Source: Paraburkholderia ginsengiterrae
GTDB taxonomy: Bacteria; Pseudomonadota; Gammaproteobacteria; Burkholderiales; Burkholderiaceae
DNA: 64,000 nucleotides
NCBI RefSeq assembly: GCF_001645125.1
Contig: NZ_LXKA01000265.1
Span: 21,480 to 85,479, forward strand
Direction: 5' to 3'
The notes below the pieces were generated by a model, which saw only the letters and a program-made list of their open reading frames with translations, made no database searches and had not been told where the DNA came from. Positions 5,046-21,901 of the stretch are shown piece after piece; the first letter of the stretch is position 1, and the number at the start of each line of letters is the position of its first letter. Made by a program: the position numbers and the translations under genes.

Positions 5046-5101
5046 ACGAAACTTAATTAGCTTTTATCAAACTATTTTTGACTAGGGGATTCTGTCTTGC
5101 T

Positions 5102-5987: not shown

Positions 5988-5993
5988 CAAGTG

Positions 5994-6014
5994 GAGAGGT
6001 TCATAAGACCTCTC
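5994..6014 (+). promoter_or_regulatory. Second leader hairpin before the TonB receptor
   Basis: GAGAGGT (5994-6000) pairs perfectly with ACCTCTC (6008-6014) around a seven-base loop. It starts seven bases after the T run of the preceding hairpin and 45 bases before the receptor start, so it may belong to the same regulatory leader. Confidence 0.45.
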
Positions 6015-6058
6015 TTCACATACTGCTGTGGCCTTACTGACGAGCGAGAAGGGGAAAA

Positions 6059-8806
6059 ATGAAACAAAGGGCATTGGCGCTGGCCATCAAAAGAATAATC
6101 TGGGCTGAACTGGCGTTGTCGGCCGCAATCGCCGTTCCGGCGTTTGCGCAAAGCCAGCCGGCCACGACCGGAGATGCAGCGGCCGCGACGACGACGGAAA
6201 GCAAACCCGCTGCTGCGGCTGCGGCTCCGGCAGCCGCATCGGGCGCCGCAGCGACTTCCGCGGAAGGCAGCGCTGCTGGCACCACGGGCAAGGGGAACGT
6301 CCAGCAACTGAAGAAGTTTGAAGTGACCGGCTCGCTGATTCGCAGCTCCGACAAGGTCGGCTTCAATCAGGTTCAGACGGTTTCCCAGAAAGAAATTCAG
6401 AACAGCGGTGCCACGACGGTTGCAGACTTCCTGCGCGACACCGCCGCCAACTCCGCCAATAGCTGGAGCGAAGGCCAGGCCGGCAACTTTGCCGCGGGCG
6501 CGGCGGGTATCGCCCTGCGCGGCCTCAGCGAAAAGTACACGCTGGTGCTGGTGGACGGACAGCGCGCGGCGCCGTTCGCGTTCTTCTCGAACAGCGTCGA
6601 CTCGTTCTTCGACCTGAACACGCTGCCGCTGAACTCGATCGACCGGATCGAAATCGTGAAGACCGGTGCAGTGTCGCAGTACGGCTCGGACGCCGTCGCG
6701 GGCGTGGTCAACATCATCACGAAACACAACTACCAGGGGCTGACGCTCGACGGCAGCTACGGCAGCGCCATCAACGGCGGCGGCGGCGCGGGCGCGACCA
6801 AGTTCAGCGCACTGGGCGGCTTCGGCGACCTCAACTCCGATCGCTTCAACGTGACGGCGGCGGCCAGCTACTACAAGTCGAACGGCATCACGCTCGCGGA
6901 CCGCGACTCGACGCGCAACCAGGACTTCACGAATCAGGCAGGCGGGTTCTCGCTGCTCGGGCCGTCGTACTGGAACCTGCCTGGCGGCGGGGTGCAGGCG
7001 CTAAACAACTGCCCGTTTGGCGGCTCGGTGCGTCCGGCAGCCACCAACTCGCTGACGGCGGGATCGGCCGGCACGGTCTGCGGCTTGAACACCGCCGAAG
7101 GCACGTCCATCGCGCCGATGATGGACCGTCTGAACGCGAAGATTCACGCTGACTTCAAGATCAACGATCAGACCACCGCGTTCGCGGACTTCCTCGTCAG
7201 CGACAACCACACCACCACGAACGATGGTCTGTGGGGCAACGTTGTCGGCAATCCGCAAGCCCCCGCGCTGGTGTATAACCCGCAGACGAAGCTGCTGAGC
7301 CCGTTCAACTTCACTGTGCCGGCGGGCAATCCGTACAACCCGTTCGGTGTGGCCACGCCGCTCACGTATGCCTTCCCGAATACGATCGCGGAGAAGACGG
7401 ATTCCGTGTACTGGCGCGCGTCTACGGGCGTCAAGGGATCGTTTAACCTGCCGAACGGTGAATGGGATTGGGCGTCGTCGATCAGCCATTCGCAAAGCAC
7501 GGTTTCGAACACCTACACGAACCAGATCAATTCCTCCGTCCTGAATGACATCTACCAGAACGGCACGCTGAATTTCGCGAATCCGGCCGCTACGCCGAAC
7601 GCGTTCAACGGGCTGTACATGGACGCGAACAACCTGGGTATCTCGAAGCTCGATACGGTCGACGCAACGCTGTCGACACCGGAACTCTTCCATCTGCCGG
7701 CGGGTGACGTGGGTCTCGGCTTCGGTGCGCAGTTCACGCACCAGAGCGAAACGATGAATCCGGGTGGGGCGTTCGCAGACGGCCTCGTCATCAACCCGAA
7801 TCTCCAGACGGTGGACGGCCAGCGCAACGTTGCGGCTGTGTACTACCAGGTCGACGTTCCAATCATCCACAACCTGACGTTCAGCCAGTCGGGCCGTTAC
7901 GACCACTACAGCGATGTCGGTGGTGCGTTCTCGCCGCGCTTCGCGCTGCGTTATCAACCGGTTCAGGCGCTGACGATGTACACGTCGTACAGCCGCGGCT
8001 TCCGCGCACCGACGTTCGTCGAGAACAGCAAGTCGCAAACGATCGGTCTCCAGGTGGATCCGGCCACTGGCCAGAACTACACGTCGATCACGGAGGGCAA
8101 CCCGAACCTGTCGCCGGAGCGCACGAAGAACTTCAACATCGGCTTCGAACTGTCGCCGACGCGTACGACCGATGTGGGCTTCGACTGGTACAAGATCCGC
8201 GTGGATAACGTGATCGGCCAGGGTACGCCTTCGCAGATCGTCACGGACGCCAACGGCAACCTCCTGTACAAGGTGATTCCGTATTCGAACCTGGGCTACC
8301 TCGACACGAACGGTTTTGAAGGCACGTTCCGCCAGGCACTGCCGACGAAGACCGCCGGTACGTTCACCCTGTCGGCCGACTGGGCGTATGTGGACAGCTT
8401 CAAGATCGGCTTCCCGGGTGCAGCTCCGGTGAATGGCGCGGGTAACAACTTCACCATCACTCAGCCGTTCGGCGGCAGCTTCCCGCGCTGGAGAGGCAAC
8501 ACCACGCTGGACTGGACGTATCACAAGTTCGACGCAGCGCTCACCTGGCAGTTCACGGGTCCGTACGCGCAGAACCTGTTGCCCCAGCCGAACAAAGTGG
8601 GTTCGTACAGCCAGTTCAACCTGATGATGACGTACACCGGCATCAAGAACTGGACGATCTATGGCGGCATCAACAACATCTTCAACCGTACGCCGCCGTA
8701 CGATCCGATCTTCGCGAACGGTACGCTGAATCAGACGGGCTACGACGAGTCGCTGTATTCGTACATCGGCCGTTTCGCCCAGATCGGCGCAACCTACAAG
8801 TTCTAA
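6059..8806 (+). CDS. TonB-dependent outer-membrane receptor
   Basis: A 915-residue outer-membrane protein. The N-terminus has a signal peptide of about 31 residues ending AVPAFAQS. A low-complexity Ala/Thr linker (about 32-80) follows, then a TonB-box-like segment FEVTGSLIRSSD. The plug domain (about 95-225) includes VADFLRD, IALRGL, LVLVDGQRAA and the motif GSDAVAGVVNIITK. The rest is a beta barrel with the C-terminal IGATYKF end required for outer-membrane insertion. The sub-motif LTMYTSYSRGFRAPTF is typical of these receptors. Substrate cannot be told from sequence; catecholate siderophores, vitamins or plant polymers are all possible. The preceding TonB-ExbBD operon is a natural energy partner, and a strong terminator follows. 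Confidence 0.92.
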   Translation: MKQRALALAIKRIIWAELALSAAIAVPAFAQSQPATTGDAAAATTTESKPAAAAAAPAAASGAAATSAEGSAAGTTGKGNVQQLKKFEVTGSLIRSSDKVGFNQVQTVSQKEIQNSGATTVADFLRDTAANSANSWSEGQAGNFAAGAAGIALRGLSEKYTLVLVDGQRAAPFAFFSNSVDSFFDLNTLPLNSIDRIEIVKTGAVSQYGSDAVAGVVNIITKHNYQGLTLDGSYGSAINGGGGAGATKFSALGGFGDLNSDRFNVTAAASYYKSNGITLADRDSTRNQDFTNQAGGFSLLGPSYWNLPGGGVQALNNCPFGGSVRPAATNSLTAGSAGTVCGLNTAEGTSIAPMMDRLNAKIHADFKINDQTTAFADFLVSDNHTTTNDGLWGNVVGNPQAPALVYNPQTKLLSPFNFTVPAGNPYNPFGVATPLTYAFPNTIAEKTDSVYWRASTGVKGSFNLPNGEWDWASSISHSQSTVSNTYTNQINSSVLNDIYQNGTLNFANPAATPNAFNGLYMDANNLGISKLDTVDATLSTPELFHLPAGDVGLGFGAQFTHQSETMNPGGAFADGLVINPNLQTVDGQRNVAAVYYQVDVPIIHNLTFSQSGRYDHYSDVGGAFSPRFALRYQPVQALTMYTSYSRGFRAPTFVENSKSQTIGLQVDPATGQNYTSITEGNPNLSPERTKNFNIGFELSPTRTTDVGFDWYKIRVDNVIGQGTPSQIVTDANGNLLYKVIPYSNLGYLDTNGFEGTFRQALPTKTAGTFTLSADWAYVDSFKIGFPGAAPVNGAGNNFTITQPFGGSFPRWRGNTTLDWTYHKFDAALTWQFTGPYAQNLLPQPNKVGSYSQFNLMMTYTGIKNWTIYGGINNIFNRTPPYDPIFANGTLNQTGYDESLYSYIGRFAQIGATYKF

Positions 8807-8834
8807 CGCCTGCCTGATTGGGCTGAAGAGTGCG

Positions 8835-8879
8835 CCGCTCCGGTTCCATGCAAGTTGGGAACCGGAGCGGTGTTTTTTT
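8835..8879 (+). terminator. Intrinsic terminator after the TonB receptor
   Basis: A perfect 13-bp stem (8835-8847 with 8858-8870) and ten-base loop are followed by a run of seven Ts at 8873-8879. This is a strong Rho-independent terminator and separates the receptor from the Yej operon. Confidence 0.9.
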
Positions 8880-8917: not shown

Positions 8918-10885
8918 GTGGCAATGAACCGATGCGCACCGTATGAGCTGATGAAAAGAATGATGAATTCCGGACCGCTGCGCGCGCACGACGCCGTCAG
9001 ATGCTTATTCGTCGCGGTGCGCCGCGCCATGAGCATCGCATTGGCCGCCGCGCCTGGCGCACTGGCGGCGTTCGGTGCGATACCGGTGGCCGTGCAGGCC
9101 AGCCCGTCCATCGCGCAGTATGACCAACCGAAATACCCCGCCGATTTCACGCATTTCGATTACGCGAATCCCGACGCGCCGGCCAACGGCACGATGAGTT
9201 TCGAGAACTACAACGAACTGCAAACCTACGATTCACTGAATCCGTTTCTGGTGCGTGGCGCACCCGCGCCGGACATCCAGAATCTGATGTTCGATACGCT
9301 GATGCAGCGTAGCTGGGATGAACTGGCCTCCGAGTATCCGTTGATCGCGGACGACGTGGAGGTGGCCGCCGACCTGAATTCGGCGACATTCCATATCAAT
9401 CCCGCCGCGCGCTTTTCCAATGGCGACCCGATCACCGCCGCGGACGTCAAATATTCGTTCGAAACGCTGACGAGTCCGCAGGCCTCGCCGCTTTTCAATG
9501 CGCAGTTCTCGGTGATCAAAAGTGCGACCGTGATCGACAAGAACACGATTCGCTTCGATTTCAAGCGGGCAGAGCGCGACGCGCCGCTGATTGCAGGCGA
9601 TCTGCCGATTTTCTCGCCGAAGTGGGGCATGCAGCCCAATGGAAAGCGCTTGCCGTTCGACCAGATCGCCACCATGCCGCCGATCAGCAGCGGTGCCTAT
9701 CTGATCGAAGAGCGCAAGAACGACAAGCAGATCGCGTATCGCCGCAATCCTGACTACTGGGCGGCGAACTTGCCGTCGCGGCGCGGCATGTTCCGCTTCG
9801 AGCGCATTACGTTCAAGCTGTATCGCGACCATTACACGCAACTCGAAGCGTTCAAGGCGGGTGACGCGGACACTATCGTCGAATACAGCGCGACGCAATG
9901 GGCGCGCAAATACGTCGGCAAGAACTTCGACAATGGTATGTTGAAGAAAGGCGACTTCGCCGATGGTCCCGCGCAGATGCAAGGCATGCTGATGAATCTG
10001 CGCAAGCCGATGTTCCAGGACCCGCGTGTGCGCCACGCGTTGACCATGGCGTTCGACTACGACTGGATGAACCGGATGATGTTCTACGGTCAATACCGGC
10101 GCACCAGCAGCTATTTCGAAGCGAGTCCGTTCGGCGCGACCGGCATGCCGAGCCCGAAGGAATTGGCGTTGCTCGAGCCGTTAAGAGGCAGCGTGCCGCC
10201 GGAAGTGTTCGGCCCGATGCTGAAGCAGCCCGACACGATCGCACCGAATTCGTTGCGCGGCAATCTGCGGGTAGCGCGCGATCTGCTGGCGCAAGCCGGC
10301 TGGCACTATCGCGACGGCGCATTGCGCGACGCCAACGGTACGCCGATGACAATCGAGATCATGGACGATCAGCCCGGCATGGACCGGCTGATTCTGCCGT
10401 ACATGCAGGCGCTCGGCATGCTCGGCATCCAGGCGCACATGCGCGAGATCGACAGCGCGCTATACCAGAAGCGCCTCGACAATTTCGAATACGACATGAC
10501 CACTTTCATCTACCCGCCGGTGACGATTCCCGGCGCGGAGTTGACGCGCCGCTTCGGCAGTGCGGCTGCGTCGGAAGTCGGATCTGAAAACTATCCGGGC
10601 ATCCGCTCGAAAGCCGTCGACTCGCTGATTCATTCCGCCCTGTCCGCCAACACGCTCGACGATCTGGAAGCGGCAACCCGCGCGCTGGATCGCGTGCTGA
10701 TCAACTCGTTCTACCTCGTGCCGGAGTACTACGCACCGGGCGCGCGGATCGGCTACAAATCGACGCTCGGCTATCCGTCCAAGGTGCCGATGTCCTATCA
10801 ATACGAAGACTGGGTCATCGATTACTGGTACGACAAGGCGCCGCCTGCCCAGACCGCATCTTCCACCCCGGCTACGGCCCATTGA
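8918..10885 (+). CDS. yejA: Peptide ABC transporter substrate-binding protein, YejA-like
   Basis: Periplasmic binding protein of the SBP family 5 that delivers oligopeptides to YejBEF. The mature part shows SIAQYDQPKYPADFTHFDYANPDAP and NGTMSFENYNELQTYDSLNPF, characteristic of YejA-type proteins, then the SBP5 core with NGDPITAADVKYSFETL. Length (655 residues) is normal for the family. A hydrophobic leader ends near VAVQASPS. The start is uncertain: GTG 8918 gives a long leader, while ATG 8951 is also possible, and neither has a strong ribosome site. It opens a run of nine co-oriented genes. In enterobacteria YejABEF takes up the peptide-nucleotide antibiotic microcin C and other peptides. 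Confidence 0.88.
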   Translation: MAMNRCAPYELMKRMMNSGPLRAHDAVRCLFVAVRRAMSIALAAAPGALAAFGAIPVAVQASPSIAQYDQPKYPADFTHFDYANPDAPANGTMSFENYNELQTYDSLNPFLVRGAPAPDIQNLMFDTLMQRSWDELASEYPLIADDVEVAADLNSATFHINPAARFSNGDPITAADVKYSFETLTSPQASPLFNAQFSVIKSATVIDKNTIRFDFKRAERDAPLIAGDLPIFSPKWGMQPNGKRLPFDQIATMPPISSGAYLIEERKNDKQIAYRRNPDYWAANLPSRRGMFRFERITFKLYRDHYTQLEAFKAGDADTIVEYSATQWARKYVGKNFDNGMLKKGDFADGPAQMQGMLMNLRKPMFQDPRVRHALTMAFDYDWMNRMMFYGQYRRTSSYFEASPFGATGMPSPKELALLEPLRGSVPPEVFGPMLKQPDTIAPNSLRGNLRVARDLLAQAGWHYRDGALRDANGTPMTIEIMDDQPGMDRLILPYMQALGMLGIQAHMREIDSALYQKRLDNFEYDMTTFIYPPVTIPGAELTRRFGSAAASEVGSENYPGIRSKAVDSLIHSALSANTLDDLEAATRALDRVLINSFYLVPEYYAPGARIGYKSTLGYPSKVPMSYQYEDWVIDYWYDKAPPAQTASSTPATAH

Positions 10886-10893
10886 GGCTCAGC

Positions 10894-11946
10894 ATGCTTG
10901 CCTACATTCTCAGACGTTTGCTATTGATGGTGCCGACTCTGCTCGGCGTCGTGACCCTGACCTTTGTCGTCACGCAGTTCGTGCCGGGTGGGCCGGTCGA
11001 ACAGGTGATGACGCAACTCCGCCACGGCACTGGCCGTGGCGGAGAGGCGGGGGCGGGTGGCGGCGGTTATCACGGCAGCCAGGGCGTCGATCCGCAGCAG
11101 ATCGAGCAGATCAAGAAGCAGTTCGGCTTCGACAAGCCGCCGCTCGAACGCTACGTGCTGATGCTCAAGCATTACGCGACTTTCGATCTCGGCCAGTCCT
11201 ACTACCAGCACGAAAGCGTGTGGGCCGTCATCAAATCGAAGCTTCCGGTGTCGATCACGCTCGGCTTATGGACGGTGATGCTCACCTATCTGATATCGGT
11301 GCCGCTGGGCATCGCGAAAGCGGTGCGCAACGGTTCACGCTTCGATACCGTCACGAGTGTTCTGGTGCTTGCCGGCTATGCGATTCCTGGTTTCGTGCTC
11401 GGCGTGCTGCTCCTGATGCTCTTTGGCGGCGGCACGTTCTGGCAGGTGTTTCCCATGCGCGGCCTGACGTCGGATAACTTCAACGACCTCAGCGTGTTCG
11501 GCAAGGTACTCGACTATCTCTGGCACATCGTGCTGCCGGTCACGGCCTCGGTGGTGGGCAACTTTGCGATCGTGACGATTCTGACCAAGAACACCTTTCT
11601 CGAAGAGATCGGCCGCCAGTACGTGCTGACCGCGCGCGCCAAGGGCGCGCCGGAGCGAGACGTGCTGTGGAAGCACGTGCTGCGCAATGCCGCGATTCCC
11701 TTGCTGACCGGTTTGCCGGCGGCCTTCGTCGGGGCGTTCCTGAACGGCAATCTGCTGATCGAAACGCTGTTCTCGCTCGACGGCATGGGCCAACTGTCAT
11801 ACGACTCGGTGATTCGCCGCGATTATCCGGTCGTGCTGGGTTCGTTGTTTCTGTTCACGCTGATTGCCCTCGTAACCAAACTCATTGCTGACGTCTGCTA
11901 TGTCCTCGTCGACCCCCGCATCCAATTCAACCGCCTGGACCACTGA
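10894..11946 (+). CDS. yejB: Peptide ABC transporter permease YejB
   Basis: Inner-membrane permease of the oligopeptide ABC family (350 residues). It starts with MLAYILRRLLLMVPTLLGVV, the usual first helix of DppB/YejB proteins. It carries a glycine-rich periplasmic insertion (about residues 46-66) typical of YejB, several more helices, and the EAA cytoplasmic loop near GRQYVLTARAKGAPERDVLWKH. The end reads VDPRIQFNRLDH. ATG 10894 is chosen because GAGG lies eight bases upstream; an in-frame TTG at 10882 overlaps yejA. The gene overlaps the start of yejE by 47 bases, which indicates translational coupling. Confidence 0.92.
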   Translation: MLAYILRRLLLMVPTLLGVVTLTFVVTQFVPGGPVEQVMTQLRHGTGRGGEAGAGGGGYHGSQGVDPQQIEQIKKQFGFDKPPLERYVLMLKHYATFDLGQSYYQHESVWAVIKSKLPVSITLGLWTVMLTYLISVPLGIAKAVRNGSRFDTVTSVLVLAGYAIPGFVLGVLLLMLFGGGTFWQVFPMRGLTSDNFNDLSVFGKVLDYLWHIVLPVTASVVGNFAIVTILTKNTFLEEIGRQYVLTARAKGAPERDVLWKHVLRNAAIPLLTGLPAAFVGAFLNGNLLIETLFSLDGMGQLSYDSVIRRDYPVVLGSLFLFTLIALVTKLIADVCYVLVDPRIQFNRLDH

Positions 11947-13015
11947 GTCGTCCGGCGTGGCGCACGCGGCATCGCCGTCGCCGTGGCGGCGTACGTGGCT
12001 GCGCTTCAAGCAGCAGCGTCTGGGCTACTGGAGCCTCGTGATCTTCGTGTCGCTCTTCGCCATCAGCCTGCTTGGCGAAGTGCTGTCCAACGACCGGCCT
12101 CTGGTCGTCCGTTACAACGGGCAGTACTATTTCCCGATTGTGAAGGACTACTCCGAGACGCTGTTCGGCGGAGATTTTCCGGCACGAGCGAATTACCTCG
12201 ACCCGTATATCCGTTCGCGGCTCGAGTCGAATGGCAACTTCGCGATCTATCCGCCGAATCATTTCCACTACGACACGATCGACTACTTCGCCGCCCATCC
12301 GTATCCGGCACCTCCCACTACGAGCAACTGGCTCGGCACGGACCAGTTTGGCCGCGATGTGCTCGCGCGGCTGCTGTATGGCTTCCGGTTGTCCGTGCTG
12401 ATGGCGTTGGCGCTCACTGTCTCCGGTGTATTGGTCGGCGTGCTGACCGGCGCGGTGCAGGGCTTTTACGGCGGGCGCACCGATCTGATCGGCCAGCGCT
12501 TGTGTGAAATCTGGAGCTCGATGCCCGACCTGTATCTGCTGATCATCTTCGCATCGATCTTCGAGCCGACGCTGTGGCTGCTATTCATTCTTCTGTCGAT
12601 GTTCGGCTGGCTCGCGTTGTCGGACTACGTGCGCGCCGAATTCCTGCGCAACCGTTCGCTCGATTACGTGAAGGCGGCACGCACCATGGGTCTGAGCAAC
12701 TGGCAGATCATGTGGCACCACGTGTTGCCCAACAGCCTGACGCCGGTGATTACCTTCCTGCCATTCCGCATGAGCGCTGCGATTCTCTCGCTGACCAGCC
12801 TTGACTTTCTGGGTCTAGGTGTACCGCCGCCCACGCCGAGCCTCGGCGAACTGCTTCAGGAGGGCAAGAACAATCTCGACGCGTGGTGGATCTCGATCTC
12901 GGCATTCGCCGCGCTGGTGATCACGCTGTTGCTGTTGACGTTCATGGGCGACGCATTGCGCAATGCGCTCGATACGCGCTCGCGTGGTTCGGCTTTTGGC
13001 GGAGGTCCGCGATGA
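11900..13015 (+). CDS. yejE: Peptide ABC transporter permease YejE
   Basis: Second permease of the Yej system (371 residues). After a Ser/Thr-rich cytoplasmic start the first helix is LGYWSLVIFVSLFAISLLGE. The large periplasmic loop contains NDRPLVVRYNGQYYFPIVKD and YPPNHFHYDTIDYF, both typical of YejE. The later part shows TSNWLGTDQFGRDVLARLLYG and the EAA loop around RNRSLDYVKAARTMGLSNW, the site that contacts the ATPase. ATG 11900 lies inside the 3' end of yejB, and the stop overlaps the start of yejF (ATGA), so the genes are translationally coupled. Confidence 0.92.
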   Translation: MSSSTPASNSTAWTTESSGVAHAASPSPWRRTWLRFKQQRLGYWSLVIFVSLFAISLLGEVLSNDRPLVVRYNGQYYFPIVKDYSETLFGGDFPARANYLDPYIRSRLESNGNFAIYPPNHFHYDTIDYFAAHPYPAPPTTSNWLGTDQFGRDVLARLLYGFRLSVLMALALTVSGVLVGVLTGAVQGFYGGRTDLIGQRLCEIWSSMPDLYLLIIFASIFEPTLWLLFILLSMFGWLALSDYVRAEFLRNRSLDYVKAARTMGLSNWQIMWHHVLPNSLTPVITFLPFRMSAAILSLTSLDFLGLGVPPPTPSLGELLQEGKNNLDAWWISISAFAALVITLLLLTFMGDALRNALDTRSRGSAFGGGPR

Positions 13016-14652
13016 TCTCGAAGCAGAAAACAGACGGCCGGCCCTTGCTGGAAATCGACCGTTTCTCGGTGCGTTTCGGCGAGAAGGTCGCCGTGCACGA
13101 ACTCAGCCTCTCGATTGCGCGCGGCGAGCGCGTGGCGCTGGTCGGCGAATCCGGTTCAGGTAAGAGCGTGACGGCGTTATCCATTCTGCGCCTCGTCGAG
13201 CATGCGCAATTGAGCGGGCGGATGCTGCTCGACGGCGAAGACCTGTTGCAGAAAACCGAGCAGCAGATGCGCGGACTGCGCGGCGCCGACGTCGCGATGG
13301 TGTTTCAGGAGCCGATGACGGCGCTCAATCCGCTCTTCACGATCGGCAAGCAGATTGCAGAGAGCCTGCGCCTGCACGAGGGCTTGCGGCCGAACGAGGC
13401 GCGCACGCGTGGCATCGAACTGCTCCGGCGTACCGGCATTCCCGAGCCGGAGCGGCGCATCGACAGTTTTCCGCACCAGTTGTCCGGTGGCCAGCGCCAG
13501 CGCGCGATGATCGCGATGGCGCTCGCGTGCCGTCCGCGTCTGTTGCTTGCCGACGAACCCACCACTGCGCTCGACGTCACCGTGCGCCAGCAAATTGTCG
13601 ACCTGCTAATCGAGTTGCAGGAACAGGAGGCCGCCGAGCGCGGCATGGCTGTGTTGCTGATTACGCACGACCTCAACCTGGTGAGGCGCTTCGCGCAACG
13701 CGTCGCGGTGATGGAGAAGGGCGTGCTGGTGGAAACCAACACCACCGAGGAACTCTTCACCCGCCCGCAGCATCCGTACACGCAACGCCTGCTGGATAGC
13801 GAACCGCGCCGGGCGGTCGAGCCCGTCGAGGCGGATGCGCCCACGCTGCTGGACGTGCAGGGCCTCGCGGTCGACTACCGCACCTCCGCGAAAGGCTGGC
13901 GGTCCATGTTTGGCCGCTCCACGTTTCGCGCGGTGCATGACGTCGATCTGAGTTTGCGGCGCGGCGAAACGCTCGGCATTGTCGGCGAATCCGGCTCGGG
14001 CAAGTCGACGCTCGCGGCGACCGTGCTCGGCTTGCAGAGGCCAGCGGCCGGTCAAATTCACATCGACGAACTGCCGCTTGCCACGCTGAAGACGGCGCGC
14101 ACGCGCCGGGCGCTGTATTCGCGTATGCAGGTCGTGTTTCAGGACCCGTTCGGCTCGCTGTCGCCGCGCATGACCGTGGAGCAGATCATCGGCGAAGGGC
14201 TTGCGGTGCATCGGCCGGACGTGGATGCGAAGGCGCGGCGCGGCCGCATTGGCAGCCTGCTCGAGGAAGTCGGCATGCCCGCCGACGCGATGCTGCGCTA
14301 TCCGCATGAGTTCTCCGGCGGCCAGCGCCAGCGCATTGCGATTGCGCGGGCGCTCGCGGTCGAGCCTGAACTGCTGGTGCTCGATGAGCCGACCAGCGCG
14401 CTCGACGTCTCGATTCAGAAACAGGTGCTGAATCTACTGACAAAACTGCAGAAAAAGTACAAGCTAAGCTATTTGTTCATTACGCACGACCTCGCGGTGA
14501 TGCGAGCCATGGCGCATCGTGTGATCGTCATGAAGTCGGGGCGCATTGTCGAAGCCGGCGACACGCTCGACGTGTTGCACGCGCCTTCGCATCCGTACAC
14601 CCGTTCGCTGCTGGCGGCCTCGCTCGACGCGTCGCAAGTGGATGCTGCGTAG
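13012..14652 (+). CDS. yejF: Peptide ABC transporter ATPase YejF (double nucleotide-binding domain)
   Basis: A 546-residue fused ATPase with two complete nucleotide-binding domains. The first has Walker A GESGSGKS at residues 45-52, the signature LSGGQRQR and Walker B LLLADEPTT. The second has Walker A at about 325-332, signature FSGGQRQR and Walker B LLVLDEPTS. Both domains end with the oligopeptide-transporter segment HPYT, known from OppD/OppF. It energises peptide import through YejB and YejE. ATG 13012 overlaps the yejE stop. A longer frame from 12883 is just read-through in the same frame. tldD starts 17 bases after its stop. Confidence 0.93.
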   Translation: MISKQKTDGRPLLEIDRFSVRFGEKVAVHELSLSIARGERVALVGESGSGKSVTALSILRLVEHAQLSGRMLLDGEDLLQKTEQQMRGLRGADVAMVFQEPMTALNPLFTIGKQIAESLRLHEGLRPNEARTRGIELLRRTGIPEPERRIDSFPHQLSGGQRQRAMIAMALACRPRLLLADEPTTALDVTVRQQIVDLLIELQEQEAAERGMAVLLITHDLNLVRRFAQRVAVMEKGVLVETNTTEELFTRPQHPYTQRLLDSEPRRAVEPVEADAPTLLDVQGLAVDYRTSAKGWRSMFGRSTFRAVHDVDLSLRRGETLGIVGESGSGKSTLAATVLGLQRPAAGQIHIDELPLATLKTARTRRALYSRMQVVFQDPFGSLSPRMTVEQIIGEGLAVHRPDVDAKARRGRIGSLLEEVGMPADAMLRYPHEFSGGQRQRIAIARALAVEPELLVLDEPTSALDVSIQKQVLNLLTKLQKKYKLSYLFITHDLAVMRAMAHRVIVMKSGRIVEAGDTLDVLHAPSHPYTRSLLAASLDASQVDAA

Positions 14653-14669
14653 ACTCATATGGGAAGAGC

Positions 14670-16106
14670 ATGATTGACGAACGTTGGGCGCAAGCCGCCC
14701 GCACGCTGACAAGCCGCGCATCGTTCTGGTCGCTGCGCATCGTCGACGAACAGATCGACGATCACGAAGTGCGCAACGACATCGCCCAGCCGTTGCGTAC
14801 CGTGCGCGATCGCGGCGCCATGCTGATCGCTTGGGTGGGTGCGGGGGCCGGCTATGCGGCCACCGCGAATCTGTCGGCAGCGGGCTTGCAGGCGGCGCTC
14901 GATATCGCCACCGCGCGAGCGGAAGCCAGCGCCGCCTGGTCGCTGATCGATCATCGCGAAGTGGCGCGGCCCGTGGCGAGCGGGCACTATGAGTCGCCGA
15001 ATGCGCAGCACGCGCTGCCGAGCCGCGCCGAATGGCTCGACCGCCTCAGCGTGGAGTGCGCCGGTGCGAATCTCGATGCGAAGATTGTCGAGCGCGTCGC
15101 GGCTGTGCAGATCACGCATACGGATCAGCTTTACATGACCGGCGACGGCGTGCGCATCGACCAGCAATTCCGCTTTGTCATGCCGCAGTTGAGCGTGGCG
15201 GCACATGCCAATGGCGACACCCAGGTCCGCACGCTCGGCGGCAATTACGGCACGCTCGGACAGGGCGGGATGGAAATCCTCGCGCGCTTCGGCTTCGACG
15301 GTTCGGGTGCGCGCGTCGCCAACGAAGCGCTGCAATTGCTCGCCGCGCCGAATTGTCCTTCGGGCAAGCGCGATCTGCTGCTCATGCCCGATCAGATGAT
15401 GCTGCAGATTCACGAGTCGATTGGCCACCCGCTCGAACTCGACCGGATTCTCGGCGACGAGCGCAACTTCGCGGGCTGGAGTTTCGTGAAGCAGGACATG
15501 TTCGGCTCGTACCAGTACGGCTCGGAACTGCTGAACGTGACATTCGATCCGGAGCTGCGCGAAGAAGCCGCGGCCTATGCGTTCGACGACGACGGCACCG
15601 CGGCGCACAAGCAATATCTGATACGCAACGGCGTGCTCGAACGTCCGCTCGGCGGCGCGCTGTCGCAGCAACGCGCGCATATGTCCGGCGTCGCGAATTC
15701 GCGCGCGTCGAACTGGAATCGTCCGCCGATCGACCGCATGGCGAATCTGAATATCGAACCCGGCGAGCAGTCACTGGAGGAGATGATCGGCAACATCGAA
15801 CATGGCATTCTGATGCGCACCAATACGTCGTGGTCGATCGACGACCATCGCAACAAGTTTCAGTTCGGCTGCGAATTCGGCCACCTGATCGAGAACGGCA
15901 AGCTCACGCAGGTGGTCAAGCAGCCGAACTATCGCGGCATTTCCGCGAACTTCTGGCGCAGCCTGAGCGCGGTGGGCAATGCCGCCACCCGCGAGGTGTA
16001 CGGCACCTCCATGTGCGGCAAAGGTGAACCGGCGCAGATCATTCGTGTCGGGCATGCGTCGCCGGCTTGCGTGTTCAGCAATATCGACGTGTTCGGAGGC
16101 GCATGA
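14670..16106 (+). CDS. tldD: TldD-type metalloprotease subunit
   Basis: TldD and its partner TldE (PmbA) form a cytosolic protease that removes leaders or degrades unfolded and modified peptides; in E. coli it matures microcin B17 and degrades CcdA. This 478-residue protein carries the zinc-binding HEXXXH motif as HESIGH at residues 248-253, the conserved GGNYGTLGQGGMEIL upstream, and the family end MCGKGEPAQIIRVGHASP. The start is preceded by GGAAGAG. It lies 17 bases after yejF and overlaps its partner by ATGA. Its linkage with a peptide importer is notable, since the two are usually apart in enterobacteria. Confidence 0.9.
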   Translation: MIDERWAQAARTLTSRASFWSLRIVDEQIDDHEVRNDIAQPLRTVRDRGAMLIAWVGAGAGYAATANLSAAGLQAALDIATARAEASAAWSLIDHREVARPVASGHYESPNAQHALPSRAEWLDRLSVECAGANLDAKIVERVAAVQITHTDQLYMTGDGVRIDQQFRFVMPQLSVAAHANGDTQVRTLGGNYGTLGQGGMEILARFGFDGSGARVANEALQLLAAPNCPSGKRDLLLMPDQMMLQIHESIGHPLELDRILGDERNFAGWSFVKQDMFGSYQYGSELLNVTFDPELREEAAAYAFDDDGTAAHKQYLIRNGVLERPLGGALSQQRAHMSGVANSRASNWNRPPIDRMANLNIEPGEQSLEEMIGNIEHGILMRTNTSWSIDDHRNKFQFGCEFGHLIENGKLTQVVKQPNYRGISANFWRSLSAVGNAATREVYGTSMCGKGEPAQIIRVGHASPACVFSNIDVFGGA

Positions 16107-17467
16107 TGAGCCAGTTCATCTCGACGCGCGCCGCTACGTCGGTGGATTGGCAGCGGCACTTCACGTCGCTCGCCGAGGCTATCGAGCGTTTGCAGCAGGG
16201 GAGTGAAATCACGCTCAGTTCGTTTGCCGGCGAGCAGTCCGATTTCATCCGCTTCAATGCGGGCAAGGTGCGGCAGACCGGCAGCGTGGCGCAGGGCAAG
16301 TTGACCTTGCGTTTGATCGACGGCGCACGTCAGGCTTATTCCACACTTACCGTGTGCGGCGATCTGCAACAGGACCTCGACGAGGTGCGCGCCGCGCTCG
16401 CCACGTTGCGTGACGGATTGCGCGATGCAGCGGACGATCCGCATCTGCTGTTCGACACGTCGAAATGGGAGCGCACCACGCAGCGCTCCGGCAAGTTGCC
16501 GGACCCCGAGAGCCTCACGCGCGTCGTCGCGGAATGTGCGCGAGGCCTCGATTTCGTGGGCTTTTACGCCGGCGGCACGATTGTGCGCGGCTTTGCCTCG
16601 ACGAGCGGCAGCCGCGGCTGGTACGAGGTGGACAACTTCAATTTCAGCTGGTCGCTGTACGACCCAAGCGGCCGCGCCATCAAAACGAGCTATGCCGGCG
16701 ACGACTGGAGCGACACGGTATTCGCGCGCAAAGTCGAGCAGGCCGCTGCGCGGCTCGCGGTGCTCGCACGCACGCCGCGCGCGTTGGCGCCGGGGCGTTA
16801 CCGTTCGTATCTGGCACCCGCCGCGCTCTCGGAACTGCTCGGCGTTGCGGCATGGAGCGGCTTTTCCGCGCGGGCCCAGGCGAGTTCGCGCAGCGAGTTG
16901 TACAAGCTGCATGTGGGAGAAATCGTAGTCGACCCGCGCGTGACGATCAGCGAAGATCTGACACTCGGCATCACCCCCGGCTTCAACGACGACGGCTATC
17001 TGCGCGAAAGCGTTCCACTGATCGAAGCCGGCCGCAGCGCCGAGCGCCTCACCAATGCGCGCAGCGCGCGCGAGTACGGCTTGACGCCGAATGGCGCGCT
17101 GGCAAGCGAGTCGCCGGCCGCGCTGTCCATGCTCGCGGGCGATCTGCCGGAAGAAGAGATACTGGCGAAACTCGGTACCGGCCTTTATATCGGCAACCTC
17201 TGGTACGTGAACTTCTCTGACCGGATGAATTGCCGCCTCACCGGCATGACGCGTTTCGCGACCTTCTGGGTCGAGAACGGCGAGATCGTCGCACCGCTCG
17301 AAGCCATGCGTTTCGACGACAGCCTGTACAGGTTGCTCGGCAGCGAACTGGAACAACTCGGCGCACAAGCCGAACTGCTATTGAGCGACTCGACATGGGG
17401 CGAGCGTGCCACGGGTGGCATGCAATTGCCCGGCATTCTGGTGAGGTCGTTCGAATTGACGTTATGA
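16103..17467 (+). CDS. pmbA: TldE/PmbA-type protease subunit
   Basis: Partner of TldD, without the HEXXXH motif, as expected for the TldE/PmbA half of the complex. The 454-residue product shows family features such as the FIRFNAGKVRQTGSVAQG start, GFYAGGTIVRGFASTSG, a region of GLYIGNLWYVNFSDRM and the C-terminal GGMQLPGILVRSFELTL. Two ATG codons (16103 and 16106) follow a CGGAGGC ribosome site; the first overlaps the tldD stop. The pair sits inside the Yej-GNAT-RND run, which suggests that imported peptides are its substrates; that is an inference. Confidence 0.88.
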   Translation: MMSQFISTRAATSVDWQRHFTSLAEAIERLQQGSEITLSSFAGEQSDFIRFNAGKVRQTGSVAQGKLTLRLIDGARQAYSTLTVCGDLQQDLDEVRAALATLRDGLRDAADDPHLLFDTSKWERTTQRSGKLPDPESLTRVVAECARGLDFVGFYAGGTIVRGFASTSGSRGWYEVDNFNFSWSLYDPSGRAIKTSYAGDDWSDTVFARKVEQAAARLAVLARTPRALAPGRYRSYLAPAALSELLGVAAWSGFSARAQASSRSELYKLHVGEIVVDPRVTISEDLTLGITPGFNDDGYLRESVPLIEAGRSAERLTNARSAREYGLTPNGALASESPAALSMLAGDLPEEEILAKLGTGLYIGNLWYVNFSDRMNCRLTGMTRFATFWVENGEIVAPLEAMRFDDSLYRLLGSELEQLGAQAELLLSDSTWGERATGGMQLPGILVRSFELTL

Positions 17468-17471
17468 GCCT

Positions 17472-18053
17472 ATGGATCGATACGAAAATACCAAGCCGGA
17501 ATCTGAGAGCTTGCCCGAGGGACTGACACTGCGTACGTTGCACGTGTCGGACGCAGAGCAATACCACGCCTTGCATGAGTTGCCGATGGTGGTGAACGGC
17601 AATCCGCACGTGCCGTTTCGGCCGATTGCCAGCACACGCGAGTACATCGAGAAACTCGCGCCCCCGGAAATCGCGTTGGTGGCAACGATCGGCGATACGC
17701 TGGTCGGCGCCGCGGAGCTCACCCCTTTCAAGGGGCGCCGTGCGCATGCCGCATCGCTTGGCCTTGGCGTGCACGACGCATGGCACCGGCGCGGCATCGG
17801 CCGTGCGTTGATGGCCGAACTGATCGATCTGGCGGACAACTGGCTCGGTCTGCGCCGTCTCGAACTCCACGTCTTCACGGATAACCACGCGGCGCTCGCG
17901 CTATACCGCAAGTTCGGCTTCGAGATCGAAGCGCACCAGCGTGGCGCGGCGTTGCGCCGCGGCGTGCTGATCGACTGCTATTTCATGGCGCGGCTGCGTG
18001 AAGCTGCGCCGTGGATGTCGCCGCCTTCGGCAACCCATCTTGCAGCGGAATAG
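17472..18053 (+). CDS. GNAT-family N-acetyltransferase, YhhY-like (first of two)
   Basis: A 193-residue acetyl-CoA-dependent transferase. The acetyl-CoA pyrophosphate loop is in GVHDAWHRRGIGRALMAELI (Q/RxxGxG/A type), followed by the LYRKFGFEIEAHQRGAALR end and MARL. The layout resembles E. coli YhhY, which acetylates small amino compounds. It starts four bases after pmbA, so it is in the operon. The next gene is a clear paralogue. Related GNAT enzymes (RimL, the C-terminal domain of MccE) inactivate processed microcin C by acetylating its amino group, which makes this neighbour of a Yej transporter interesting. The true substrate is unknown. Confidence 0.85.
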   Translation: MDRYENTKPESESLPEGLTLRTLHVSDAEQYHALHELPMVVNGNPHVPFRPIASTREYIEKLAPPEIALVATIGDTLVGAAELTPFKGRRAHAASLGLGVHDAWHRRGIGRALMAELIDLADNWLGLRRLELHVFTDNHAALALYRKFGFEIEAHQRGAALRRGVLIDCYFMARLREAAPWMSPPSATHLAAE

Positions 18054-18057
18054 GACC

Positions 18058-18606
18058 ATGAACGCAGAAACGTTGCCAGACGGCCTTGCGCTCGACAATC
18101 GTATTACGGTTCGAGCCCTCGAATCGTCCGACATGGACGCCTTCGCCGAAATCATGAGCCTGCCCGGCGTGCGGCGCGGCACGCTGTCGCTCGGCTACCG
18201 CAACCCCGTTCAGCTCAAGGCGTGGTGCGAACAGCGCCTCAAGCACGGCGTGAGCGTCTGCGCGACCATTGGCGGACGCATGGTCGGCCACGCCGGGCTG
18301 GGGATTCACGAGCGGAGCCGCGCGCACGGCGCGGATTTAGGCGTGGCGGTGCACGACGCGTATCACGGGCGAGGTGTCGGCTCTGCGCTTCTGCAAGCAC
18401 TGATCGATTGCGCCGATGCGTCGCTCGGCTTGCGCCGAATCGAGCTCACGGTCTTTATCGACAATGAGCCGGCCATTGCGCTGTATCGCAAGTTCGGCTT
18501 TGTCGAAGAAGGACGCTCGCGCGGTTTTGCCATGCGCGACGGCGTGCTGGCGGACTGCTTGCATATGGCCCGCCTGGTCGATGCGCCGCGGCTCCAGACA
18601 AACTGA
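18058..18606 (+). CDS. GNAT-family N-acetyltransferase, YhhY-like (second of two)
   Basis: This 182-residue protein is a tandem paralogue of the preceding acetyltransferase. Shared features are LALDNRITVRALESSDMDAF at the start, GVAVHDAYHGRGVGSALLQA as the acetyl-CoA loop, then GLRRIELTVFIDNEPAIALY, RKFGFVEEGRSRGFAMR and MARLV. ATG 18058 lies four bases after the previous stop and is preferred over an in-frame ATG at 17998 inside the upstream gene. Retention of two diverged copies suggests two substrates or a heteromeric enzyme. Confidence 0.85.
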   Translation: MNAETLPDGLALDNRITVRALESSDMDAFAEIMSLPGVRRGTLSLGYRNPVQLKAWCEQRLKHGVSVCATIGGRMVGHAGLGIHERSRAHGADLGVAVHDAYHGRGVGSALLQALIDCADASLGLRRIELTVFIDNEPAIALYRKFGFVEEGRSRGFAMRDGVLADCLHMARLVDAPRLQTN

Positions 18607-18619
18607 ACGGATGATCTGA

Positions 18620-21600
18620 GTGCCATTTTTCTTCATCGACCGCCCGGTCTTTGCCTGGATCGTCGCGCTCGCCATTGTCGTGGCGGGCGCGCTGGCTATT
18701 CCGCAACTGCCGGTGGCGCAGTATCCGCGCCTCGCGCCACCGCGCATCGTGATTTCCACCACGTATCCAGGGGCGTCGACCGAAGTGGTGGATGCCAACG
18801 TCGGCAGCATTATCGAGGAGAGTCTCGATGGCGCCGACAATATGCTGTACTACGAAACAACCAGCGACAACCTCGGCGAACTTGAAATCGACGCGACGTT
18901 CGCGCCCGGCACCAATCCCGATCTCGCGCTGGTCGACATCCAGAACCGCCTCAAGCAGGTCGAGTCGCGTTTGCCGCAGCAGGTCGTGCAGCAGGGCATC
19001 ACGGTCTTCAAGGCGGCCAACACGTTCCTGATGCTGGTCGCGCTCACCTCGACTGATGGCTCGCGCGATTCCGTGCAATTGAGCGACTATCTGAGCCGCT
19101 ATGTGTTGCGAGAACTGAAGCGGGCGCCGGGCGTCGGCGCGGCCGAACTGTGGGACGCCGACGAGGCGCTGCGCATCTGGCTCGACCCGATGAAGTTGCG
19201 CGAATACAACCTCGGCGCGGCCGACGTGAACGCCGCCATCGCCGCGCAGAACGCCACCGTCACGGCGGGCACGCTGGGCGATGCGCCGTTCGTGCCGGGG
19301 CAGCAATTGACCGCGTCGGTGAGCGTGAAGGGCCAGCTCATCTCGCCGGAGGAGTTCGGCCAGATCGTGCTGAAAGCGCTGCCGGACGGTTCGGCCGTGC
19401 GCTTGCGCGACGTCGCGCGGGTCGAACTTGGGCGCGACAATTACTCATTTTATTCGCGCCTGAACGGCAAGGCGGCGGCCACGGTCGGCATTCAGCTCGG
19501 GCCGCGCGGCAATGCGCTCGAAACGTCGAATGCGATTCGCGCGCGGTTGGCCGAGTTGTCGAAAGGACTGCCGCCGGGCGTGTCCGTTGAAATCCCCTTC
19601 GATAACGCGCATTTCGTGCAGATCGCCATTCGTGAAGTGCTGGTCACGCTCGCGGAGGCGGTCGTGCTGGTGTTCTTCGTGATGTGGCTGTTCCTGCGCG
19701 ACCTGCGCTACACGCTGGTGCCGACTGTCGTGATTCCCGTCACGCTGATGGGCGCGTTTCTCGCCATGTATGTATGCGGGCTGTCGATCAACGTGTTCAC
19801 GATGTTCGGACTCGTGCTCGCCATCGGGATTCTCGTCGACGATGCGATCGTGGTGGTGGAGAGCGTGCATCGCGTGATGGAAGAGGAGGGCCTGCCGCCG
19901 CGCGAGGCCACTCGCAAGGCGATGACGCAGATCGGCGGCGCGATTGTCGGCGTGACCGCGGTGCTCACCGCCGTGTTCGTGCCCATGGCCTTCTTTCCCG
20001 GCGGCGTGGGCGGCATCTACCGGCAATTCGCGGTGGCGATGATTGCGTCGATGCTGGTGTCGTCGTTCATGGCCTTGTCGTTGACGCCTGCGTTGTGCGC
20101 GAATCTGCTGAAAGCGCACACGCATTCGGTACGTGAACGCGATGCGCGCCGGGGCGTGTTGGGTTTCGCGGCGCGCGCGGCAAGCCGTTTCACCTCCGGC
20201 TTCGATCACGCCGCGCGTGGCTATCGCGGCATGACCGCGCGCACGCTGCGCCGCATCGGCCCAATGCTGGCGGTCTACGCCGTGCTGGTGGGCGTGTGCG
20301 GTGTGCTCTACTGGCAGATGCCCGGCGGGTTTCTGCCGAGCGAAGATGAAGGCCAATTGCAGGTCATGATGCAGTTGCCGGCGGGCGCCACGCAGGCGCG
20401 TTCCCAGGCCGTGGTGCAACGCGTGGAAAAGATTCTGCACATGGAGCCTGCCATCGCCAATGTGACGAGTGTGGTCGGCTGGAGTTTCGCCGGCAGCGGT
20501 CAGAACGTGGCCATGTGTTTCGTCGAACTGAAAGACTGGGGCAAGCGCGACACTGACGCGCAGGCCCTGCGCGACCGGCTCAACGAGCAGTTCGAGAAGA
20601 TCATCGAGGGCGACGTGGAGGCGCAACTGCCGCCGTCGGTGCCGGGTATCGGCCATTCGGACGGTTTCGTGTTCCGCCTGGAAGATCGCGGCGGCGTGGG
20701 GCTCGCTGCGCTGAAGGCCGCACGCGAGCAATTGTTCACGCAGGCCAAAGCGAGTCCGGTGCTGACCTCCGTGCACTCCGAAGACCTGCCAGACGCGCCG
20801 CGCGTCGAACTGACCATCGACCGCGCGAAAGCGTATGCGCTCGGCGTGCCGTTCGAACGTATCGCCGACGTGCTCGGCAGCACCTTCGGATCGACCTATA
20901 TCGACGATTTCCCGACCGGTGGCCGCATGCGCCGCGTGGTGATCGCCGCCGACGCCGCCACGCGCATGACCGACGACGATCTGCTGAAGCTCGCCGTGCC
21001 CAATACCAGCGGCGGCATGGTGCCGCTTTCGGCGATCGCGGCGCGCAAGTGGACCATCGGTCCGGTGATGCTGACGCGCTACAACGGCTATCCGTCGCTC
21101 GACGTGAGCGGCCACGCGGCGCCGGGCTACAGTTCGGGCGCGGCTATGGCGGAAATGGAGCGACTTGCCGCTTCGTTGCCGGTCGGCGTCCAGTATGACT
21201 GGGTCGACGCCGCACGCGAGGAAACCGCGGCGGCGAAGCTCACGCCGCTCCTGATCGGCCTCTCGCTGCTGGCCGTGTTCATGGCGCTGGCCGCGCTGTA
21301 CGAGAGCTGGACCATCCCGCTCGCGGTGCTGATGGTCGTGCCGCTCGGTGTGATCGGTGCGGTCGCCGCGGTGCTCCTACGCGGCATGCCCAACGACGTG
21401 TACTTCAAGGTCGGCATGATCACGGTGATCGGTCTCGCGGCGAAGAACGCGATTCTGATCGTCGAGTTCGCGCGCGATCTGTACCGGCGCGGCCTGCCGT
21501 TGACGCGCGCGGTGACCGAAGCCGCGGGTGCGCGTTTCCGCCCGATCGTGATGACCTCGGCGGCGTTTCTGCTCGGCGTCGTGCCGCTCGTGGTGTCGAG

Positions 21601-21826
21601 CGGCGCCGGCGCGGAAAGCCGGCGCTCGATCGGCACTGGCGTCTTCGGCGGCGTGCTGGCGGCCACGCTGTTCGGGCTGGTGTTCGCGCCGGTCGCGTTC
21701 CACGCGGTCGCTTCGCTCACGCACGGCCGGCGGCGGCTGGCCGAACTGCGCCGCAAGCGCGACGCGCGGCGGGCCCGCCGTGCCGAGGTCGAAACCGCGT
21801 CGTTCGACGAATCGCCGATGGCATGA
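18620..21826 (+). CDS. RND-family efflux transporter, inner-membrane pump (HAE1 type)
   Basis: A 1068-residue AcrB/MexB-like proton-driven drug pump. It starts MPFFFIDRPVFAWIVALAIV as usual. The proton-relay aspartates are present at residues 407-408 in AIGILVDDAIVVVESVHR, and the partner lysine at 942 in GLAAKNAILIVEFARDLY. Two large periplasmic loops and twelve helices fit the full length. GTG 18620 is the likely start, 13 bases after the GNAT gene, with only a weak ribosome site. No periplasmic adaptor (MFP) or outer-membrane channel gene is adjacent, so it must borrow partners or work alone. A hairpin terminator follows. Confidence 0.9.
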   Translation: MPFFFIDRPVFAWIVALAIVVAGALAIPQLPVAQYPRLAPPRIVISTTYPGASTEVVDANVGSIIEESLDGADNMLYYETTSDNLGELEIDATFAPGTNPDLALVDIQNRLKQVESRLPQQVVQQGITVFKAANTFLMLVALTSTDGSRDSVQLSDYLSRYVLRELKRAPGVGAAELWDADEALRIWLDPMKLREYNLGAADVNAAIAAQNATVTAGTLGDAPFVPGQQLTASVSVKGQLISPEEFGQIVLKALPDGSAVRLRDVARVELGRDNYSFYSRLNGKAAATVGIQLGPRGNALETSNAIRARLAELSKGLPPGVSVEIPFDNAHFVQIAIREVLVTLAEAVVLVFFVMWLFLRDLRYTLVPTVVIPVTLMGAFLAMYVCGLSINVFTMFGLVLAIGILVDDAIVVVESVHRVMEEEGLPPREATRKAMTQIGGAIVGVTAVLTAVFVPMAFFPGGVGGIYRQFAVAMIASMLVSSFMALSLTPALCANLLKAHTHSVRERDARRGVLGFAARAASRFTSGFDHAARGYRGMTARTLRRIGPMLAVYAVLVGVCGVLYWQMPGGFLPSEDEGQLQVMMQLPAGATQARSQAVVQRVEKILHMEPAIANVTSVVGWSFAGSGQNVAMCFVELKDWGKRDTDAQALRDRLNEQFEKIIEGDVEAQLPPSVPGIGHSDGFVFRLEDRGGVGLAALKAAREQLFTQAKASPVLTSVHSEDLPDAPRVELTIDRAKAYALGVPFERIADVLGSTFGSTYIDDFPTGGRMRRVVIAADAATRMTDDDLLKLAVPNTSGGMVPLSAIAARKWTIGPVMLTRYNGYPSLDVSGHAAPGYSSGAAMAEMERLAASLPVGVQYDWVDAAREETAAAKLTPLLIGLSLLAVFMALAALYESWTIPLAVLMVVPLGVIGAVAAVLLRGMPNDVYFKVGMITVIGLAAKNAILIVEFARDLYRRGLPLTRAVTEAAGARFRPIVMTSAAFLLGVVPLVVSSGAGAESRRSIGTGVFGGVLAATLFGLVFAPVAFHAVASLTHGRRRLAELRRKRDARRARRAEVETASFDESPMA

Positions 21827-21868
21827 CGGCGCAGCGCCGCCGTCACGCTCAACCGGCGGGCTGATTCG

Positions 21869-21901
21869 CCGCTTGAGCGGGGACGCCGCTCAAGCGGTTA
21901 T
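21869..21901 (+). terminator. Hairpin terminator after the RND gene
   Basis: A perfect 12-bp stem, CCGCTTGAGCGG (21869-21880) with CCGCTCAAGCGG (21886-21897), has a five-base loop and is followed by TTATTAAAT. A smaller 8-bp stem (21824-21831 with 21838-21845) overlaps the stop codon. Together they end the Yej-TldD-RND unit. Confidence 0.75.

Follow-up and report, generated by a model that had tools for sequence, protein, structure and literature searches.

The window analysed here is a stretch of 64,000 nucleotides of the Paraburkholderia ginsengiterrae genome (assembly GCF_001645125.1, contig NZ_LXKA01000265.1, positions 21,480 to 85,479), and it holds a same-strand gene system that rather probably constitutes a dedicated line for importing and trimming peptides: an outer-membrane receptor, a TonB set of its own, a YejA-type binding protein, a YejBEF-type ABC importer, and a TldD/TldE protease. 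The gene families, the intact TldD motifs, the linkage of the genes, their conservation in the Paraburkholderia group of soil- and plant-dwelling bacteria, and the repeated exchange of the receptor are established at the level of sequence. We favour import and trimming as the reading that employs every conserved part, counting a presumed disposal step by acetylation and an RND permease.

Genes of the proposed import and trimming line

Nine open reading frames (ORFs), all on the plus strand, occupy positions 8918..21826, and the ORF list, Pfam, and NCBIfam agree with the families that a sequence-only reading of this DNA had given them. Their junctions are gaps of 17, 4, and 13 bases or apparent overlaps of 4, 62, 133, 40, and 56 bases, the larger overlaps arising because the first possible start codon was taken. 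That reading had, though, left out the TonB system and the receptor upstream; the nine-gene run is the distal half of a larger system on the same strand, with its upstream genes at 1101-8806.

The importer begins with a YejA-type peptide-binding protein (8918..10885, start codon uncertain; Pfam SBP_bac_5, 2e-64), for which phmmer against the PDB gave 4ony (4.3e-108), YejA 8fss (3.7e-98), and the methanobactin-binding protein MbnE 5icq (1.3e-96); the source genome has another YejA, 50% identical to this one. It is followed by a YejB-like permease (10882..11946; NCBIfam YejB 430.7 bits, cut-off 445), a YejE-like permease (11885..13015, start codon uncertain; 392.4 bits, cut-off 439), and a YejF-like double ATPase (12883..14652, start codon uncertain; 621.9 bits, cut-off 834). 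All three fall below the curated cut-offs, YejB and YejE narrowly and YejF further, yet these are the models that match best; judged by their scores they are a Yej-like sister group.

Next come a TldD-like metalloprotease subunit (14670..16106; Pfam), which carries HESIGH and a distal CGK, and a TldE/PmbA-like partner without a zinc motif (16067..17467; Pfam). The TldD protein gives a profile match of 1.6e-29 to E. coli TldD (5nj5), and its motifs align with the zinc site of that structure in the profile alignment (residue roles are those given in PMC5810440). HExxxH and the distal CGKGE are kept in 74 of 74 TldD sequences (73 loci, defined below, and the window), and HExxxH occurs in none of the 74 TldE sequences; the pair is a predicted active heterodimer that would cut peptides. 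Its TldD scores 80.4 bits with the NCBIfam TldD model (cut-off 513) and is thus not the E. coli-type equivalog, and it is 25% identical to the other TldD of the source genome; by these comparisons it is a divergent second TldD type. To our knowledge, few natural substrates of TldD/TldE are known. One study places TldD/TldE in about 60% of bacterial genomes and describes an enzyme that threads unfolded peptides and halts at modified residues (PMC10885120).

The run closes with two GNAT acetyltransferases and an AcrB-type RND permease (18620..21826; Pfam ACR_tran; NCBIfam RND_permease_1 1330.7 bits, cut-off 1250). GNAT 1 (17472..18053; Pfam, NCBIfam) is YhhY/PA1377-like, with PA1377 (2vi7) as its closest structure match, and GNAT 2 (17998..18606; Pfam, NCBIfam) is 45% identical to it. 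For both, the best model is PRK10140, which we take to be YhhY (106.7 and 107.3 bits, cut-off 236). The RimL model PRK10151 reaches only 20.2 bits with GNAT 2 (cut-off 184) and is not listed for GNAT 1. These scores lead us to reject the RimL part of the RimL/MccE-type assignment made earlier; no MccE-named model was among those listed.

Upstream, also on the plus strand, lie genes for TonB (1101..1808; Pfam TonB_C 5.5e-18), which adjoins the run in relatives, for an ExbB/TolQ-family energiser (1885..2790; MotA_ExbB 1.1e-32), and for two ExbD proteins (2803..3225 and 3333..3761; ExbD 1.1e-28 and 9.1e-26). A TPR-repeat protein (3771..4955; TPR_16), conserved in relatives, travels with this TonB block. 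An XRE-cupin regulator (5078..5677; HTH_3 and Cupin_2) is PuuR-like, at 63 bits with the NCBIfam PuuR model (cut-off 211), and the TonB-dependent outer-membrane receptor (6059..8806; Pfam plug and barrel) stands directly before yejA. Between the TPR and XRE genes there is a strong hairpin (4990-5036, z -3.9) that has no T-tract.

The strong terminators that had been proposed to bound the nine genes hold in part. The left hairpin with its U-tract (8832..8873, plus strand; -32.7 kcal/mol, z -4.3; a run of seven U, the first of them paired) is a good candidate and likely an attenuator or terminator, but it lies inside the larger system; a hairpin with a T-tract stands between receptor and yejA in 24 of 50 relatives. 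The right hairpin (21868..21898, plus strand) folds strongly (z -5.1), but its tail, UAUUAAAU, is poor in U. A consensus terminator scan called neither. A consensus scan for sigma-70-like sites in 7000-24000 returned a single one against 3.6 expected in shuffles; it is a minus-strand site near 22260 that lies beyond the run, and internal promoters in the run may be compatible with this outcome.

Conservation within and beyond the genus

Our genus sample comprised 118 genomes, the source genome included, all with some TldD. Operon-type TldD, defined as a match of at least 74% identity, gave 74 matches in 73 of the 118 genomes, and all 73 loci other than the window were fetched. The whole set of nine genes is present in 52 of these 73, in the same order in 52 of 52, so that the gene order is indeed kept outside this strain, as the sequence-only reading had asked to be checked. 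If one counts loci with Yej, TldD/E, at least one GNAT, and the RND gene, the figure is 54 of 73, including one with a single GNAT (L185) and one in which a contig end cuts before yejA (L202). Three loci (L194, L196, L197) have Yej and TldD/E without GNAT or RND; one (L159) has Yej, TldD/E, and RND with no GNAT matches; and one (L166) shows no RND match in the 1.1 kb covered after GNAT 2. Of the 73 loci, 56 show a same-strand receptor match and 44 show ExbB/ExbD above 60% identity; many stretches end too early to include those genes. Other sequence lies between receptor and yejA in L190, L194, L196, and L197, and in two relatives (L167 and L181/L252) it is the TonB-ExbB-ExbD-ExbD-TPR block that stands there. 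Two adjacent YejA matches occur in L204 (G079) and L224 (G105).

The specialised YejA was searched for at E up to 1e-215 (67-100% identity), a threshold that leaves out the other YejA of the source genome. It occurs in 68 of the 118 genomes, 63 with and 5 without operon-type TldD, while 10 genomes have this TldD without the YejA and 40 have neither. The two genes lie no more than 10 kb apart in 59 of the 63 genomes; in the remaining four (G001, G004, G043, G053) they are on different contigs, and in G004 yejA sits at a contig end.

The import core also occurs without operon-type TldD. One locus (L249, in G080) runs from the TonB block to yejF with no TldD/E, GNAT, or RND in the next 5.7 kb; a second locus of G049 (L250) has none of them in the next 9 kb; and in G012 (L251), whose genome has no operon-type TldD by genome search, the stretch ends 0.4 kb after yejF. 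GNAT and RND without TldD/E were not seen in the fetched genus loci; these had been picked for TldD, so that a statement that GNAT and RND need TldD/E would be a weak one.

Named species were scanned in the best 80 loci (L071-L150), and the counts that follow for them and for the loci outside the genus are among the matches listed. The 23 from named Paraburkholderia, Burkholderia, and Caballeronia (L071-L093) comprise 13 with all nine genes, three with Yej and TldD/E only, two with Yej, TldD/E, and RND, one with TldD/E, RND, and two short YejF matches, and four with TldD/E alone. P. dilworthii and P. bryophila are among the named species whose loci carry the full set of nine. Off the genus we considered 77 loci, 20 from the order (L051-L070, which include a distant TldD at 29%) and 57 from named species (L094-L150). 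A TldE-type match follows TldD in all 77, and Yej-type genes lie near TldD/E in eight (L051, L055, L095, L099, L103, L116, L132, L139). The arrangements differ: L099 and L116 have the Yej-type set on the opposite strand together with ExbB/D and two receptors, and in L103 and L139 it shares the strand of TldD/E, and after it come an adaptor gene and, beside that, an RND gene other than the one in the run (27-28%). A prolyl oligopeptidase gene sits between Yej and TldD/E in L051, an M3 peptidase gene adjoins TldD/E in L139, and L097 shows ExbB/D and two receptors beside TldD/E with no Yej match, its contig ending soon after. As a background, YejF at E up to 1e-80 gave one match in nine and none in seven of 16 order genomes, somewhat of an undercount, since the weaker set of G139 (L055) fell short of the threshold. 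The only match in G237 is that near TldD/E. With one YejF match or none per genome, adjacency of Yej and TldD/E is unlikely to be due to chance.

Two plasmids carry related sets. On a Burkholderia stagnalis plasmid (L151) the order is TonB-ExbB-ExbD-ExbD-XRE-receptor-binding protein-YejB-YejE-YejF-TldD-TldE, with no GNAT or RND after it, and on a Pseudomonas aeruginosa plasmid (L152) TldD/E, an ABC gene, TonB, ExbB, ExbD, receptor, binding protein, and YejB stand in a row. About 5 kb downstream of TldE, the former plasmid also holds a cluster resembling those for ribosomally synthesised and post-translationally modified peptides (RiPPs), with an M16 peptidase, three B12-binding radical SAM genes, and a 55-aa ORF (L151:21803-28595). 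The latter set, on a 480-kb plasmid from urine, adjoins a mer operon and a Tn3-family transposase. The Pseudomonas loci have TldD/E with at most single weaker ABC matches; a common partner was sought among their neighbours (MFS, FUSC, BCCT, aldehyde dehydrogenase, GMC oxidoreductase, and one family-less ORF), and no shared theme emerged. GNATs beside TldD in L094 and L095 are 34-36% identical to GNAT 1 over 70-90 residues (Pfam was run on L094).

Receptor exchange and the leader RNA

The receptor has been exchanged repeatedly but, to judge from a TldD+TldE tree, not rampantly. In loci selected for a TldD identity of 90% or more to that of the window, the receptors are 51-96% identical to the window's and form two main groups (34 loci); in the loci so chosen, XRE is at 86-95% (30 loci), YejA at 81-92% (34), YejB at 94-98% (34), and ExbD1 at a median of 96%, apart from a small number of matches at 28%, which hit a different ExbD-like ORF. 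With the threshold set at 68%, the 56 receptors compared (one from the window and 55 from the other loci; the 624-residue ORF of L175 was left out) fall into seven classes. Placed on a quick TldD+TldE tree of 56 rows, these classes need 16 changes where six is the least possible, and starred branches alone force six changes each for classes A and B and four for class C. The classes are nevertheless still clustered on that tree (shuffled mean 26 changes; as low in 0 of 200 shuffles), which is why we do not call the exchange rampant. Classes diverge most in the barrel, where identity around residues 300-420 is 32-37% in the two pairs shown. Two tandem receptors, each with a leader, occur in L166, and L175 has two receptor matches, one ORF being short.

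Directly before the receptor gene, covariation points to a structured leader RNA (5958..6064, plus strand) of two hairpins and a conserved tail over the ribosome-binding site. We found the leader stretch, which runs up to the start codon of the receptor, in 49 of the 73 loci, and 45 distinct sequences share the two hairpins, 97.6% of cells being paired and two-sided changes numbering 20. When off-operon copies are included (63 distinct rows), two-sided changes occur in 10 of 15 pairs and 45 cells, as high in 0 of 500 shuffles, in an alignment partly fitted to the model and with counts that relatedness can inflate; slid versions of the pairing reach at most 8 pairs and 21 cells. The leader is argued from covariation because single-sequence folding energies are unconvincing (z -2.5, -0.6, -0.1, -2.3, -1.9). 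A third helix, covarying or blocking the Shine-Dalgarno sequence, was considered and rejected: pairing of UCUCUU with AGGGGA is possible in 89% of cells, yet there is hardly any covariation, with 3 two-sided cells. An Rfam 15 cmscan of 5650-6150 gave nothing at E up to 1, and five relatives gave nothing at 0.1.

The source genome has one leader copy, at least one is found in 58 of the 118 genus genomes, and one genome has six. Off the operon, 35 leader sites were found and 20 fetched, the other 15 scoring 40 bits or less; at all 20 the leader lies directly before a receptor of the same subfamily, 53-83% identical to that of the window. Not all of these receptors are orphans, since two sites (L238, L244) carry yejA and yejB right after the receptor and one (L233/L251) has YejABEF 2 kb further on. 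On a receptor tree of 36 of the 56 operon rows and the 20 off-operon rows, the two kinds interleave, with 12 changes of the operon label, 11 of them forced by starred branches; the label is partly clustered (shuffles as low in 3 of 500). In named species, the leader is present in 12 of the 23 genus loci, and weak hits at the right place were obtained in B. stagnalis (22.8 bits) and L087 (19.6 bits). Beyond its own genome, one of 99 order-sample genomes matched, weakly (24 bits, E 5.3e-4), which we take as chance, and spread of the leader off the genus is not accepted.

The leader probably sets translation of the receptor. Much more tentatively, and against what we would ourselves expect, the operon may be a fixed hub whose single import-and-trim line serves a pool of paralogous leader-bearing receptors, scattered in some genomes. 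The leader would then be a translational switch, the 3' strand of hairpin 2 pairing alternatively with the ribosome-binding site, that puts the whole receptor set under one signal, perhaps the trimmed product, and receptors would be exchanged between hub and pool to follow the changing peptides of other organisms.

Proposed pathway and competing explanations

We envisage that a peptide from outside binds the receptor (6059-8806), that the TonB-ExbB-ExbD-ExbD set of the operon (1101-3761) powers its pull through the outer membrane, and that it passes to the YejA-type protein, from which YejBEF and ATP would drive its entry to the cytoplasm. There TldD/TldE would thread it and cut off unmodified residues. 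The direction and order of transport, and a modified peptide as substrate, are inferred. Since TldD/E stops at modified residues, according to PMC10885120, an indigestible remnant may be left, which would explain the GNAT and RND genes: the two GNATs may cap the free amine of this fragment, and the RND permease may remove it with the help of an adaptor and a channel whose genes lie elsewhere. The GNATs and the lone RND gene are thus probably an add-on for disposal of the modified remnant.

Of the sequence that the earlier reading had proposed (import, processing, acetylation, and expulsion of a peptide antibiotic), import followed by proteolysis is well supported by Yej, YejA, the TldD motifs, the motif-free TldE, the TonB system, and the receptor, and immunity of the microcin C type is not. 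Its own alternative, specialised peptide feeding, fits better than self-protection, as a cell spending proton-motive force and ATP on import presumably wants the peptide.

Several observations weigh against import and trimming. TldD/E occurs alone in 14 of the 73 genus loci and without Yej nearby in the Pseudomonas loci, and thus has uses outside this line; likewise 69 of the 77 off-genus loci are without a Yej-type set, several of these stretches being short. The co-occurrence of YejA and operon-type TldD (Fisher p 1.2e-16) was computed with genome relatedness ignored. No RND adaptor or outer-membrane channel gene is found among the nine run proteins, which therefore do not make a complete tripartite system. 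Small ORFs and conservation in six intergenic stretches yielded no convincing linked RiPP precursor, the best conserved being the leader before the receptor and the region before the XRE gene. Relatives of TldD/TldE include N-deacetylases, going by a title in the references of PMC10885120. The nearest family models of the receptor are for haem and siderophores; none comes close to its cut-off (127 bits against 317 at best), and there is room for a metal-chelating ligand.

An unlikely alternative, though the foremost of them, is self- or cross-protection against an imported microcin C- or azole-peptide antibiotic, with TldD/E, GNATs, and RND destroying, acetylating, and expelling the toxin that Yej admits. 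It can appeal to the presence of GNAT and RND together in 54 of the 73 loci, to the import of microcin C and phazolicin by Yej transporters (reported in PMC10128002), and to the processing of microcin B17 and a microcin C relative by TldD/E (PMC10885120). A dedicated TonB-powered receptor, however, invites the peptide in; GNAT and RND are absent from three of the 73 loci and from the B. stagnalis plasmid, all of which retain import and TldD/E; and no toxin gene was seen among the run genes. Microcin C immunity relies on MccE and RimL, and it resembles the operon in that a GNAT adjoins peptide import, but the operon GNATs are YhhY/PA1377-like. For microcin C self-protection in particular, no convincing precursor ORF was found in the six intergenic stretches either, and no peptide-antibiotic biosynthesis gene was found among the genes examined, namely the run and its upstream neighbours.

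We also hold it improbable that the system recaptures a peptidic metal chelator, the receptor and YejA/MbnE-like protein importing a metal-loaded peptide, TldD/E freeing the metal, and RND recycling the remnant, although this explanation stays in contention, since the match of the binding protein to MbnE is about as good as that to YejA. Methanobactin uptake uses MbnT and MbnE, that is, a TonB receptor and a YejA-family binding protein (the 5icq match) for a modified peptide; the operon adds an ABC importer and TldD/E, and no methanobactin gene was found among the genes examined. The sub-threshold haem and siderophore scores of the receptor would fit this alternative, as would the exchange that siderophore receptors show, which is like that of the operon receptor. 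On the other side, YejA proteins match the binding protein equally well, the regulator is PuuR-like and not a metal regulator, and no chelator synthesis gene lies among the run genes. Lastly, it is quite unlikely that separate units (receptor and TonB set; Yej; TldD/E; GNAT-RND) are kept by shared inheritance with no common pathway: TldD/E alone, a Yej core without TldD/E, and RND without GNATs do occur and a terminator-like hairpin follows the receptor, but the same association reappears beyond the genus, with the genes in other orientations, and also on a plasmid, the TonB block is inserted inside the line in two relatives, and the genes from yejA to rnd overlap or nearly so.

The import-and-trim line that we prefer has parts each of a known kind. 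Lasso peptide isopeptidase systems pair a TonB receptor with a dedicated protease, and their logic is shared: a receptor imports the peptide and a dedicated intracellular protease opens it. Here TldD/E and Yej take that place, and there is no isopeptidase or lasso synthesis gene among the run genes. YejABEF is likewise a four-gene ABC importer with a YejA-family binding protein, described as a promiscuous peptide transporter in PMC10128002 and importing microcin C and phazolicin, and a related binding protein serves muropeptides with YejBEF (YejBEF-YepA; PMC9790009); the set in the operon differs as a second, specialised copy linked with a TonB set, a receptor, and a TldD/E pair of its own. 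The TldD/TldE (PmbA) pair conforms to MEROPS family M103, with HExxxH and a distal Cys in TldD and no HExxxH in TldE, but it lies inside a transport operon, whereas TldD/E of RiPP producers is often encoded outside the clusters that it serves (PMC10885120). In the open-licence literature searched, no paper was found with both TldD and YejF, titles and abstracts revealed none on this operon, and neither the linked line nor the leader-marked pool of receptors turned up.

The operon ties a divergent TldD/E to a receptor, a binding protein, and an ABC importer, and so offers a direct way to find a TldD/E substrate through the ligand of its YejA. The leader and the exchangeable receptors would show how uptake of foreign peptides can be retuned without changing the processing line, and the leader would define a new RNA element. 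Elsewhere in the window, positions 59528-59649 match the Burkholderia small RNA family Bcj11 (RF02835, 77 bits).

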